From assembly GCA_003818285.1 (NCBI GenBank), contig RPRB01000027.1, forward strand, positions 1 through 36,456: a stretch of DNA of 36,456 nt, in the 5' to 3' direction. The notes beneath the pieces were generated by a model. That model did not search any database, had not been told where the DNA came from, and saw only the letters and a program-made list of their open reading frames with translations. Source of the stretch: Myxococcaceae bacterium. GTDB lineage: Bacteria > Myxococcota > Myxococcia > Myxococcales > Myxococcaceae. A program made the position numbers and the translations under genes. Shown piece after piece: positions 10,004 to 14,473 of this stretch. Each line of letters opens with the position of its first letter. The first letter of the stretch is position 1.

Positions 10004-11032
10004 TCAGCCGCGAACGAAGGCGGTGAACCGCCCGCGCACGGCGATGCGCCCGTGCTGGTTCACCGAGTCGGTCCTGATGACGAAGAGCTCGTTGTTCCCC
10101 CGCGTGGAATGCGACTCCAGGGTCCCGGTGGTGAGGAGCACGTCCCCGGGCCGGAGCACCTCGCGGAACTCGAACTCCTGCTCGCCGTGGAGCACGCGGA
10201 ACACGTCCACCTCCATCGCCGGGTCGAGCAGCGCCGCCTGCGCGGGGGTGATGGAGAACAGCACCGCGAACATCGGGAAGGCGATCATCGAGCCCCAGGG
10301 AGAGCGCGCTCCGGCCTCCTCGTCGTGGAGCACGGGATGGAGGTCCTCCGGCAGCCCGGTCGATGCGTACGAGGGCTGTCCGCCGGAAATGGCGACGGCG
10401 TACTCGCGCATCTTCTCGGCCCCCATCACGTAGCGGAACGGCCCCCAGCTCCGGCCAACCGCGGCGCGCCCCGGACCGCGCGCCGGACCCGTGCCTCCGC
10501 CGCTGGGTCCGGGCACCGTCCCTGACGCGGGCGGCAGCCGCGCCTCCTCCAGCAGCTCCGAACGCGACATCCGGAGAACCTCGGCCGCCTGGGCCACCTC
10601 CGCGGTCATCCCCGGCACCGTCGTCGTACCGCGCCGCTCGGGCGGTCGCTCCCGGCCCTCGACCACCACGTTCTTCAGCACCTCGTCGCCGGACTGGTTC
10701 CGTGCCACGACGGCCGCCGTCACCACGCCGGCCGAGACCTCGGAGACGGTGCCCTCGAAGCGCACCGTGTCCTCCGGACGCACCGGTCTGCTGAAGCGCG
10801 CCTTCAGGCCGGTCACCAGCCCCGGGTCCCCCAGGAATCGGGCGAAGGCGTCCACGCCCCAGGCGAGCGTGCAGAGCCCCTGGAGGATGACCCCGCCCAG
10901 CCCCGCCGCCTGGCCCACCTCCGGGTCGATGTGGATGGGATTGAAGTCCCCGCTCGCCCCCGCGTAGTAGAGCGAGCGGTAGCGGTCGCACTCGCGAACC
11001 AGCGAGAAGGTCTGCCCGGCCTGGATGCTCAC
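10004..11032 (-). CDS. Double-hotdog MaoC-like dehydratase
   Basis: The 342-residue product carries two hotdog domains. The N-terminal one has the hydratase-2 signature YAGASGDFNPIHIDPEVG (catalytic Asp and His visible) and resembles MaoC/HadB subunits that hydrate enoyl or dehydrate 3-hydroxyacyl thioesters. The C-terminal half (about residues 210-342; REYAVAISGGQPSYAS, then WGSMIAFPMFAVLF) resembles the N-terminal FAS1-type dehydratase region/HadA subunit, which is usually structural. The domain order is thus B-A. A low-complexity linker (PGPSGGGTGPARGPG) separates them. The GTG at 11032 overlaps the stop of the upstream reductase gene (GTGA), so the two are translationally coupled. Substrate is unknown; acyl-CoA or acyl-ACP is inferred. 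Confidence 0.8.
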   Translation of the reverse strand: MSIQAGQTFSLVRECDRYRSLYYAGASGDFNPIHIDPEVGQAAGLGGVILQGLCTLAWGVDAFARFLGDPGLVTGLKARFSRPVRPEDTVRFEGTVSEVSAGVVTAAVVARNQSGDEVLKNVVVEGRERPPERRGTTTVPGMTAEVAQAAEVLRMSRSELLEEARLPPASGTVPGPSGGGTGPARGPGRAAVGRSWGPFRYVMGAEKMREYAVAISGGQPSYASTGLPEDLHPVLHDEEAGARSPWGSMIAFPMFAVLFSITPAQAALLDPAMEVDVFRVLHGEQEFEFREVLRPGDVLLTTGTLESHSTRGNNELFVIRTDSVNQHGRIAVRGRFTAFVRG

Positions 11033-12153
11033 GCGTTCGCCTTCGCGCCCTCGTCCAGAGGGTCCTCGACCAGCGTCTCTGCCTCGGCAGCCTGCCGGCG
11101 CGCGTAGTCCTCGCGCACGTAGGCGATGAGAGTGTCCAGGTAGGTCGACAGCCGCGGGCAGCGGATGCCGGTGCCCTCCAGCAGCTCGAGGGTGTTGGCG
11201 CTGGTGAACCAGGCCAGCTGGTTGATGTAGCCCAGCGCCGCGCGCTGGGGGCGGGTCACCCGCTCGAGGAGGGGTAGCCGCAGCACCGCCTCGGCCGCGC
11301 GCGCGGGGAAGGTGAGCTTGGGGATGCGGCGGTTGGCGCGCTCGGCGATGAGCTCGTAGACCCGGGCCACGCTCATCGGGCTCGGATCCACCAGGTGGAA
11401 GGTCCGGCCCTTCGCCCGCGGGTCGGAGGCGAGCCGGACCGTGGCCTGCACCACGAAGTCCACCGGGACCACGTTCAGCGGCGCGATGCCGTTGCCGGGA
11501 AGGGGGAGAGGGACCACCAGCGGGCTCGCCACCAGGAGAATGCCCAGCGCGTAGGGCCCCTCGAAGCGGTCGATCTCCCCGGTCCGCGAATCCCCGACCA
11601 CGGTGGAGGGCCGGACGATCGTGACGGGCAGCGCGTCCATCGCCCGCACCACCGCCTTCTCCGCGTGGAACTTGCTCTCCTCCCAGGCGTTGCGGAACTC
11701 CTGGCCCCGGTCCAGCTCGTCCTCGGAGATGACCCCCTCGCGCGCGCCGGCCACGTGGCAGGTGCTGAAGTGCACCAGCCGCTCCAGGCGCCGGCACTCC
11801 CGAGCGAGCTCCAGCACGTTGCGCGTGCCCTCCACGTTGGTGCGGAAGGCCTCCTCCCGGGAGATGGTGAGCTGGTTCAGCGCGGCGAGGTGGAAGATGC
11901 GGGTCACGCTCGCCGCGACGCGCTCCACCTCCTCGCCGGAGAGACCGAGGTGCAGGTCGGTCACGTCGCCGGACAGCACCTCGACCGGAGCGCCGGGCAC
12001 CCGCGCGGCGAGGCCCCGCGCCTCGTCCAGGAAGCGGGGCTGCACCAGGGCGTACACCCCGCCCCGTCCCTGCTGCGCGAGGTGCTCCACCAGCCGCTTC
12101 CCGATGAAGCCCGGGTAGCCGGTGACCAGCGTGGCGCCGTCGCTCGGGGACAT
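11029..12153 (-). CDS. NAD(P)-dependent extended SDR / thioester-reductase-like protein
   Basis: Extended short-chain dehydrogenase-like protein of 374 residues, resembling the male-sterility/thioester reductase (fatty acyl-CoA reductase) group. The Rossmann motif is TGYPGFIGKRL at the N-terminus. NAD-site motifs include VTRIFHLAALNQL, NVEGTRNVLELA and the serine-containing LVHFSTCHVAG, and IVRPSTVVGDS follows the active site. The active-site segment reads FRNAWEESKFHAEKA: Lys161 is present, but the position of the catalytic Tyr (four before the Lys) is Trp157. It therefore may not be a standard SDR reductase. The C-terminal ~110 residues are helical and basic. It lies 12 bp downstream of coaE and overlaps the MaoC gene, consistent with lipid or acyl-CoA work. 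Confidence 0.8.
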   Translation of the reverse strand: MSPSDGATLVTGYPGFIGKRLVEHLAQQGRGGVYALVQPRFLDEARGLAARVPGAPVEVLSGDVTDLHLGLSGEEVERVAASVTRIFHLAALNQLTISREEAFRTNVEGTRNVLELARECRRLERLVHFSTCHVAGAREGVISEDELDRGQEFRNAWEESKFHAEKAVVRAMDALPVTIVRPSTVVGDSRTGEIDRFEGPYALGILLVASPLVVPLPLPGNGIAPLNVVPVDFVVQATVRLASDPRAKGRTFHLVDPSPMSVARVYELIAERANRRIPKLTFPARAAEAVLRLPLLERVTRPQRAALGYINQLAWFTSANTLELLEGTGIRCPRLSTYLDTLIAYVREDYARRQAAEAETLVEDPLDEGAKANA

Positions 12154-12165
12154 GGGCGGAGGACC

Positions 12166-12762
12166 TTATCCGCTCCCGCGAATCTCCTCCCAGATTCGAC
12201 GGACCTGGGCCCGCGTTTCGTCGAGCGAGCCACCGTTGTCCACCACCCAGGTGGCGTGCGCCCGCTTGTCGGCCAGTGGCAGCTGCGCCGCGAGCCGGGC
12301 GGTGATGGCGGCGTCGTCCAGGCCGTCACGCGCCGCGAGGCGGGCCCGCTGGACCGCCTCCGGCGCGGAGACGAGGATCACCCCGTCCATTCCCCGGTGG
12401 AGCCCGTTCTCGATGAGCAGCTCCGCGTCGTAGAGCACCACCGTCACCCCGGCGCGGGCGAGCGCCTCGGTCCTCCGCGCCACCTCCTCGCGGATACGCG
12501 GGTGGAGGATGCCCTCCAGTGCTCGCCGCTCGCCAGGGTCGGCGAACACGCGCCGCCCGAGCGCCGCCCGGTCCAGATGTCCGCTCGGGTCCAGGACTCC
12601 GGGGAACCGGCGGGCCACCTCCTCCAACCCCGGCGTGCCGGGCTCCGCGACGTCGCGGGCCACCTGGTCGGCGTCGATGACCTGGGCGCCGAGCTCGCGG
12701 AACATGGCGGTCACGGTGCTCTTGCCCGAGCCGATGCCACCGGTGAGCCCCACCATCCGCAT
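12166..12762 (-). CDS. coaE: Dephospho-CoA kinase
   Basis: CoaE phosphorylates the 3'-hydroxyl of dephospho-CoA, the last step of coenzyme A synthesis, in the cytoplasm. The 198-residue product has the P-loop GLTGGIGSGKSTV immediately at the N-terminus, then AQVIDADQVARDV, a lid region ILHPRIREEVARRTE and LYDAELLIENG, all typical of the family, and the normal length. ATG 12762 shares its A with the TGA of the upstream gene (TGATG). A second ATG two codons later (12756) is an equally good start. It is placed in front of two acyl-thioester genes, which may explain the pairing. Confidence 0.94.
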   Translation of the reverse strand: MRMVGLTGGIGSGKSTVTAMFRELGAQVIDADQVARDVAEPGTPGLEEVARRFPGVLDPSGHLDRAALGRRVFADPGERRALEGILHPRIREEVARRTEALARAGVTVVLYDAELLIENGLHRGMDGVILVSAPEAVQRARLAARDGLDDAAITARLAAQLPLADKRAHATWVVDNGGSLDETRAQVRRIWEEIRGSG

Positions 12763-13298
12763 CAGCGAGGAGGGGTCGATCCCGCCGGAGCGGCGGTCGC
12801 CGCGGGCGCGGGGGTGGGGGCCGGACGGGGCGCGGTGTAGACGACGGATTGCACCCGGTCCTCGCTCTCCTCGAAGAACACCGCCAGCCCGATGCGGCTG
12901 TAGAGGTAGTAGGTGCGGAAGTCGTCGGTGAGCTTCTTCTGGAAACAGGCCGCCGGCTGGGGTGCCCCCGACTTGGGGCAGGGCGGGCCGAAGGTCGCCT
13001 CCACCGTCTCGTGGTCGATGGCGGTGGCGGGAAACACGTCGATGCGGTCCACCACGCCGGTGGACGGGTCCACCCGGAACTGTGCCTGCGAGGTCCCCTT
13101 CATCGCCGCCGAGTCGGTGTAGGCGAGGACCTCCTTGCCCGAGACGGTGACCGTCTTGCTCGGAGGCCCGAAGCGCTTCACGACGTCGTCTCGCCGCGAC
13201 ACGCCGGGTTCGATGCCGTTCCATGCCTTGGCGCGGGCCACCGCCGCGACCAGGAGCAGCGTGACCAGCAGGGTGCGCCTCGGGCCGGTGCAGCGCAT
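12762..13298 (-). CDS. Small exported protein, possible SmpA/OmlA-like fold
   Basis: I do not recognise a named family. The 178-residue product starts with a signal peptide (basic MRCTGPRR, hydrophobic TLLVTLLLVAAVARAKA), so it is probably periplasmic. The mature part opens with WNGIEPGVSRRDDVVKRFGPP, which resembles the start of SmpA/OmlA (BamE-like) domains where a GxS..dV...lG.P motif recurs. A second, weaker echo is HETVEATFGPPCPKSG. Two cysteines (in GPPCPKSG and PAACFQ) could form a disulphide. The C-terminus is alanine/proline-rich. It is the first gene of the coaE-SDR-MaoC set, and its stop overlaps the coaE start. Functional assignment is uncertain. Confidence 0.75.
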   Translation of the reverse strand: MRCTGPRRTLLVTLLLVAAVARAKAWNGIEPGVSRRDDVVKRFGPPSKTVTVSGKEVLAYTDSAAMKGTSQAQFRVDPSTGVVDRIDVFPATAIDHETVEATFGPPCPKSGAPQPAACFQKKLTDDFRTYYLYSRIGLAVFFEESEDRVQSVVYTAPRPAPTPAPAATAAPAGSTPPR

Positions 13299-13385
13299 CC
13301 CTTCCGTCTACCCCGACCGCCGGGGGCCCTCAACCTCCTGCCGCTTGCCAGAGGGGAGGGCAATCCCGTATCTGCCCGGTGCTCG

Positions 13386-13871
13386 ATGACCCTCCCACGC
13401 TCGACCCGCTGGGTGCTGGCGCTCGCCGTGCTGTGCTCCGCGATGGCCGCGGGCGCGGACTTCCTCGGACCCGAGAGCTGCAAGGGGTGCCACCCCGACG
13501 CGTACGCGGCCTGGAGGTCCTCCAAGCACGCGCGCTCGATGGAGTCCCTCACCGCCGAGCAGCAGCGCGAGGCCCGCTGTACCACCTGCCACGCTCCCAA
13601 CCTCGCCGACCAGTCCATGACCGCGATCAGCTGCGAGACCTGCCACGGCGGCGGCCAGTACTACGCGCCCGCGTACGTGATGAAGGACCCGGAGCTGGCC
13701 CGGCTGGTGGGGCTCCAGGACCCGTCGGAGAAGTCGTGCCGGAGCTGCCACGAGCCGAGCTCGCCGTCTCTCCGCCCCTTCCAGTTCGCGGAGAAGCTGA
13801 AGGCCATGGACCACTGGAGCGTGGAGCGGCAGAAGCGCGGCGCCTCGCCGTCTCCCCGCGCCGACCGGTGA
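13386..13871 (+). CDS. Periplasmic tetrahaem cytochrome c
   Basis: The 161-residue protein has an N-terminal signal peptide (RSTRWVLALAVLCSAMAAGA) and four CXXCH haem-binding sites: CKGCH, CTTCH, CETCH and CRSCH. The first lies in GPESCKGCHPDAYAAWRSSKHA, the typical opening of cytochrome c554/multihaem domains in which the later histidine is a distal ligand. It is probably a periplasmic electron carrier. It stops by GTGA overlap with engB, an unusual partner, so coupling may only reflect gene packing. It is divergent from the small exported-protein gene, with an 87-bp gap. TTGCCA (13345) and TATCTG (13369) with 18-bp spacing could be a promoter, but they would leave almost no leader. Confidence 0.9.
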   Translation: MTLPRSTRWVLALAVLCSAMAAGADFLGPESCKGCHPDAYAAWRSSKHARSMESLTAEQQREARCTTCHAPNLADQSMTAISCETCHGGGQYYAPAYVMKDPELARLVGLQDPSEKSCRSCHEPSSPSLRPFQFAEKLKAMDHWSVERQKRGASPSPRADR

Positions 13872-14473
13872 TCCGCGTCCTCGACGCGCGCTTCCTCACC
13901 ACCGCGGTGGAGGAGAAGGGGTGGCCGCCCGGCGACGCACCGGAGATCGCCTTCGTCGGCCGGAGCAACGTGGGCAAGTCGTCGATGATCAACGCGCTCA
14001 CCGGCCGCCGGAAGCTGGTCCGGGTCTCGAACACGCCGGGCCGCACCCGCACCCTCAACTTCTTCGACGCCGTGCTGGAGAAGGACGGACTTCGCCGCAC
14101 GGTCCGCCTCGCCGACCTTCCAGGGTACGGATTCGCCCGGGTGTCCCACGCGGAGCGCGCCAGCTGGGAGAGGATGATCACCACCTATCTCGAACGACGG
14201 ACGTCGCTGCGCGGCGTGGTGGCGATCGTCGACGCGGAGGTGGGGGCCACCGAGGATGACGTCCGCACACTGGCCTACCTCGTCAACGCGGGACGGCAAG
14301 TGCTGGTCGCGGCGACCAAGCTGGACCGGCTCGGCAAGGCGCACCGGAAGCCACAACTCGCCGCGATCGCCGAGCGCCTGTCGGTCCCGCGTGACACCGT
14401 CCTGGGTTTCTCGGCAACGGACAAGCTGGGGGTGCCTCAAGTGTGGGAGTCGCTCTGGATGGCCACGTCCTGA
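13868..14473 (+). CDS. engB: Ribosome biogenesis GTP-binding protein EngB (YihA/YsxC)
   Basis: EngB is a small GTPase needed for large ribosomal subunit assembly. All G motifs are readable in the 201-residue product: G1 GRSNVGKSS, G2 around NTPGRTRTLNFF, G3 DLPGYG, G4 TKLD and G5 SAT. Length and order match the family. The GTG start at 13868 overlaps the stop of the cytochrome gene. No other ATG/GTG precedes the conserved N-terminal segment DAPEIAFVGRSN as well. Cytoplasmic; no odd residues seen. Confidence 0.95.
   Translation: MIRVLDARFLTTAVEEKGWPPGDAPEIAFVGRSNVGKSSMINALTGRRKLVRVSNTPGRTRTLNFFDAVLEKDGLRRTVRLADLPGYGFARVSHAERASWERMITTYLERRTSLRGVVAIVDAEVGATEDDVRTLAYLVNAGRQVLVAATKLDRLGKAHRKPQLAAIAERLSVPRDTVLGFSATDKLGVPQVWESLWMATS

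Follow-up and report, generated by a model that had tools for sequence, protein, structure and literature searches.

A coaE-linked extended SDR of Myxococcota with tryptophan at the catalytic tyrosine position in one genus

The closest described counterpart of the SDR studied here is the terminal reductase (R) domain of MxaA (PDB 4u7w/4w4t), an extended SDR with the same Rossmann, Ser/Thr, and Lys positions, from which our protein differs in standing alone without a carrier-protein module, in being only 28% identical, and in carrying Trp for Tyr. In NDUFA9, the 39-kDa subunit of complex I, the SDR fold serves a non-catalytic role; the likeness to our protein is weak in both sequence and fold and, unlike NDUFA9, the gene described here sits with coaE and a MaoC dehydratase gene. 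R domains are described with a Ser/Thr-Tyr-Lys triad (PMC8949500), and SDRs without the Tyr are already known. WbpM/PglF (PMC8987622) and CapE (PMC3699295) are, like our protein, extended SDRs in which Tyr is replaced and Lys is kept, but they are described as nucleotide-sugar dehydratases with a fixed Met (MxxxK), whereas Trp is found here, in a single genus of a family that otherwise bears Tyr. In the Tyr-less PglF, Thr395 and Asp396 are reported to take the proton (PMC8987622). SimC7, described as an active extended SDR ketoreductase without the catalytic Tyr, as proposed below for our protein, has Ser-Ile-His and substrate-assisted catalysis on its polyketide (PMC5039031); it also lacks the Lys that is kept here. 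The Y149F variant of UGAepi is reported to stay active, though about 1.2 x 10^3-fold less so than the wild-type enzyme (PMC7984243). Beside these accounts, what is new here is the Trp variant, and a narrow open-access literature search, which is no proof of absence, led us to recognise no paper on Trp at the SDR Tyr position and none on this coaE-linked SDR.

The window, that is, the whole stretch of 36,456 nucleotides analysed (contig RPRB01000027.1 of a Myxococcaceae bacterium), contains the following features.

10004..11032, minus strand: two-domain MaoC/HadAB-like dehydratase with a proposed GTG start, overlapping the SDR stop codon (GTGA)
11029..12153, minus strand: thioester-reductase-like extended SDR of 374 aa (Pfam NAD_binding_4) in which Trp157 occupies the place of the catalytic Tyr
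11551..11553, minus strand: Tyr201, in the loop ahead of helix 200-209
11671..11673, minus strand: Lys161 of the (Y/W)xxxK motif, intact
11683..11685, minus strand: Trp157 codon TGG, where the SDR catalytic Tyr belongs
11755..11757, minus strand: His133, two residues past Thr131, a candidate substitute acid
11761..11766, minus strand: Ser130-Thr131, the invariant Ser and the triad hydroxyl residue
12100..12123, minus strand: Rossmann cofactor motif TGYPGFIG, residues 11-18
12166..12762, minus strand: coaE, encoding dephospho-CoA kinase, which precedes the SDR gene by 12 nt
12762..13298, minus strand: hypothetical protein upstream of coaE and touching it, with no Pfam match at 1e-5

The minus-strand order is, thus, hypothetical (13298-12762), coaE (12762-12166), SDR (12153-11029), and MaoC-like (11032-10004), and the GTGA overlap of the last two genes suggests translational coupling. 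The MaoC-like protein carries Pfam MaoC and FAS1_DH domains and matches the fused HadA/HadB model at 1.8e-30, below its cut-off. On the other strand, an ORF at 12849-13871 (+) with a cytochrome c7/c554-like stretch adjoins an ORF at 13379-14473 with a ribosome-binding GTPase domain.

The SDR reading frame starts with ATG, and its codons 155-161 (11671-11691) read AAC GCC TGG GAG GAG AGC AAG, or NAWEESK. The preliminary description had placed Trp157 (TGG) where the catalytic Tyr should be, and this was borne out both by the codons and by a HMMER alignment that pairs AWEESK with GYAQSK, the YxxxK segment in the reductase domain of MxaA. An AlphaFold2 model puts Trp157 second in helix 156-171, which we take to be where the SDR Tyr sits. 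The same description was right that Lys161 (AAG) is kept and that the Rossmann motif, which has the GxxGxxG pattern of extended SDRs, is intact. It was also right that the serine motif is intact, with the refinement that alignment with MoeE5 and MxaA makes Thr131 more likely than Ser130 to be the triad hydroxyl; among the homologues aligned below, position 130 is Ser in 143/143 and position 131 is Thr in 111/143 and Ser in 32/143. The Ser/Thr-Tyr-Lys triad is, therefore, incomplete, with Thr131 and Lys161 present and Tyr replaced by Trp157.

Assignment of the protein to a family was based on profiles and on the model, which was built with 65 family members taken from 134 eligible rows thinned to <80% identity and which has a mean pLDDT of 92.3. 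Pfam NAD_binding_4 (PF07993) matches residues 10-237 at 1.8e-42 (145.7 bits, above the gathering cut-off of 20.1), and the best sequence-profile match is the MxaA R domain (4.7e-47). MxaA R-domain chains also occupy Foldseek ranks 1-4 (best 7.2e-25) and the top of the VIA-align matches (Z 36.5, rmsd 2.9, 338 residues aligned), followed by rice DPW acyl reductase (Z 34.0), an S. coelicolor PKS thioreductase (33.4), and CAR (31.9). The predicted fold is, thus, closest to thioester-reductase domains. The curated models score below their cut-offs, with 124.6 bits against 213.35 for TIGR01746 (thioester reductase domain) and 239.7 against 549 for NF005539, the best NCBIfam match (PRK07201-type SDR; residues 9-356, 7.7e-71, first 360 of 657 model positions), so that "thioester-reductase-like" is the upper limit of naming. 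PRK07201-type SDRs include acyl-CoA/aldehyde reductases. The myxobacterial ether-lipid gene elbE was considered as a possible namesake (PMC9131029).

A match to the SDR at E <= 1e-50 was found in 157/195 Myxococcota genomes and 68/90 genera, and the 217 loci were reduced to 144 distinct proteins by collapsing copies identical except for 20 residues at each end. A GTDB scan by short exact peptides covered the best 80 of 91 relatives. Position 157 is Tyr in 134 of the 144 proteins, Val in 4, Trp in 3, Phe in 2, and Ile in 1, with Met in none, while position 161 is Lys in 139 and Arg in 4, one row having no letters there. The three Trp rows are the window protein and the two pieces of a single sister gene; with these pieces joined there are 143 rows (Tyr in 134, Val in 4, Trp in 2, Phe in 2, and Ile in 1). 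The preliminary description had asked whether Trp157 is conserved among orthologues, and it is not: Tyr is retained in homologues down to 35% identity, the coaE-linked family as such is not Tyr-less, and Trp as a family trait was rejected. At the level of the family, orthologues with Tyr, which the description had named as refuting its interpretation, are therefore the rule. Nor did the alignment place another, lineage-specific Tyr in the active site; Tyr201 was rejected as a stand-in because it is invariant in all 143 rows, including those that carry Tyr157, and is, thus, no substitute peculiar to the genus. The window genome holds no close paralogue, its next match being 33% identical. The exact pattern FRNxWExx[K] matched in 3/195 Myxococcota genomes, at the window SDR and two unrelated places; it demands the FRN context and missed the sister genome, whose contig begins within the motif.

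The position of the gene is also conserved. Among 139 homologues with >=600 nt of upstream sequence, 126 have a same-strand coaE <=200 nt upstream, and the remaining 13 comprise four with coaE 0.9-2.7 kb upstream, five belonging to an outlying clade of their own, and four without coaE. In the window, 16 nt separate the tblastn matches to coaE and the SDR, the latter lying directly downstream, and the window SDR is the positional orthologue of a Myxococcota-wide SDR directly behind coaE. The order coaE then SDR (window 11029-12762) is, thus, a phylum-wide arrangement, while a MaoC relative lies <=500 nt downstream in 36 of the 132 homologues with room for one. The outlying clade (L211, L212, L213, L214, and L050; 35-41% identical) retains Tyr and is not beside coaE, and three of its genomes also have a coaE-group copy. 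One further locus (L067), from a record titled Comamonas sp. KCTC 72670, clusters with Myxococcus rows, and its label looks wrong.

A sister genome of the same genus also reads TGG at codon 157, with different flanking codons. The sister gene is split over two contigs (end of L128 and start of L119), which overlap by 11 nt at codons 155-157, and TGG is read on both sides of the break. The overlap, the identity of 86-89% to the window on each side, and synteny indicate that the fragments are one gene; their bins are labelled Myxococcaceae (Chersky_276) and Actinomycetales (Chersky_575) and are probably mis-binned parts of one genome. The window and the sister half that spans position 161 both retain Lys161, and the window and the other half both retain Ser130 and Thr131. 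The two proteins share 329/374 residues, and dN/dS between them (Nei-Gojobori) is 0.130 for the SDR, compared to 0.148 for coaE, 0.157 for the upstream hypothetical gene (134 codons), and 0.188 for the MaoC gene. Since both genes already carry Trp, the change from Tyr predates the split of the two species, and constraint acts on the Trp form. That the Trp stems from faulty sequencing or assembly, or from decay of the gene, is accordingly highly improbable. The window assembly consists of 502 contigs, and the break in the sister gene falls exactly at codon 157, as an error would lead one to suspect, but TGG is two base changes away from either Tyr codon and occurs in both species, on both sides of the break, and between differing flanks, and the reading frame is intact and selected; sequencing error was, thus, rejected. 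The genus has, in short, truly lost the catalytic Tyr of this SDR, although the gene is conserved and under selection. As selection has kept it intact, the encoded protein, which is built like a thioester or fatty-acyl reductase, probably continues to function, but in an altered manner.

In a quick ML tree, computed without columns 157 and 161 and with SH-aLRT as its sole support measure, the Trp form arose once, in the window genus. The tree requires five changes between Tyr and non-Tyr, four of them forced by starred branches, and two changes from Lys161 to Arg. The other losses are to Phe (L042, L049), Val (L127, L130, L131, L188), and Ile (L196), and several of these rows are long branches of unsure placement. 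Arg replaces Lys161 of YxxxK in L046, L047, L127, and L130. The Trp and both Phe copies and three of four Val copies are coaE-linked, whereas L131 (Val) and L196 (Ile) are not. Of 63 columns that are >=95% conserved in Tyr-bearing rows, the window protein departs at none and the sister at one (62/63 kept), L042 at 1, L049 at 7, and the Val and Ile rows at 6-15, so that the Trp case does not resemble decay of the kind that the Val and Ile rows suggest. Both Trp rows do depart together at columns 67, 79, 137, 263, 316, and 334, each >=90% conserved in 111 close Tyr-bearing rows; the change at column 137 (D137A) lies in the loop behind Thr131. Columns 89, 15, 151, 137, and others are enriched with Tyr loss in a plain Fisher test, with only 4-5 phylogenetically independent pairs, too few for a claim that any residue co-varies with the loss. 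The stem of the Trp pair, at 0.40, is longer than the tip of the nearest Tyr-bearing relative, at 0.29.

The preliminary description had offered two options, NAD binding without reductase activity and an alternative proton donor. Both stand for the Trp lineage, since the Trp is real, occurs in the two genomes of the genus, and has been subject to purifying selection, whereas the family as such mostly keeps Tyr; sequence evidence cannot decide between them. We tentatively favour, at somewhat less than an even chance, an SDR of thioester/acyl-reductase-like type in which binding of cofactor and substrate persists and putative catalysis does without Tyr. In the genus ancestor, Trp replaced the catalytic Tyr with the other active-site residues unchanged; the SDR would still bind NAD(P)H together with a carbonyl or acyl-thioester substrate. 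Hydride transfer would go on without Tyr, the proton being passed along Thr131, His133, Lys161, and water or the nicotinamide ribose, and either the rate would be slower or the substrate would need less acid catalysis. This reading draws on the constraint on the Trp form, the conserved columns, the retained Lys161, Ser130, and Thr131, the operon position, the absence of a close paralogue, and the MxaA-like fold, and the proton route through Thr131/His133/Lys161 or water is preferred in light of the Tyr-less precedents and of the Thr-Cys-His segment at residues 131-133 of the Trp rows. As judged from the MoeE5 alignment and the published PglF motif, this segment probably occupies the positions of PglF T-D-K, with Cys-His after the Thr instead of Asp-Lys, so that His133 takes the place of the PglF Lys, directly beside the Asp position. 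It counts against the favoured reading that Trp cannot give a proton as Tyr does and that a 10^3-fold loss of activity is usually disabling; the six shared departures including D137A, the long stem, and the presence of His133 in just 13/143 rows, with Tyr in its place in the Phe157 rows, also weigh against it.

The enzyme reading has a rival almost as likely, a non-catalytic NAD(P)-binding protein. Such a pseudoenzyme, doubtful but credible, would keep binding NAD(P)H and substrate without redox chemistry as a structural, sensing, or channelling subunit beside the MaoC dehydratase, like NDUFA9. That the family has lost Tyr on no fewer than four or five occasions, two of them (L127 and L130, both with Val) accompanied by a change of Lys161 to Arg, fits this view, as do the residues without variation in 143 rows (Ser130, Glu165, Arg181, Pro182, Gly192, and Tyr201) and the 39-kDa chains among the sequence and Foldseek matches (ranks 33 and 41); no complex I chain is among the top 50 VIA-align matches listed, which excludes nothing. 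A purely structural role, however, need not demand Lys161 and Thr131, both retained in the window, and the retention of Tyr in 134/144 homologues and the near-intact conserved columns of the Trp rows speak against it. An unlikely further reading is that the family reaction was never strictly dependent on Tyr157, being substrate-assisted or Thr-based in the manner of SimC7 or PglF, so that Tyr was helpful yet dispensable and drift to W/F/V/I was tolerated. Tyr157 is indeed less conserved than its neighbours Glu158 (142/143) and Glu165 (143/143), the losses recur among coaE-linked copies, and SimC7 (PMC5039031) and CapE (PMC3699295) are reported precedents, but the breadth of Tyr retention, down to distant homologues, points to a genuine function of this residue in the majority of lineages, and several of the losing rows are the long, unsure branches noted above.

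Within the favoured reading of a Tyr-independent enzyme, it is possible, though rather unlikely, that Thr131-Cys132-His133 took over the general-acid duty of Tyr, the lineage having passed through an ancestor with both His133 and Tyr157 that made the loss tolerable. His133 is older than Trp157, as it is present in both Trp rows and in L003, the nearest Tyr-bearing row; the Phe157 rows carry Tyr at position 133 instead. If this were true, the coaE-linked family, with its repeated Tyr losses, would offer a series from nature of how SDRs lose their acid catalyst.

In the literature cited here, Tyr-less SDRs are presented with the replacement fixed across a whole subfamily. The present case contrasts with this in being a phylum-wide syntenic orthologue group, mostly with Tyr, in which Tyr has been lost several times, once to Trp with nearly all else unchanged and selection acting. 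The window protein and the Tyr-bearing L003 form a natural before-and-after pair for asking how far the SDR fold works without its acid catalyst, and the finding draws attention to a conserved coaE-linked reductase-like gene of myxobacteria.
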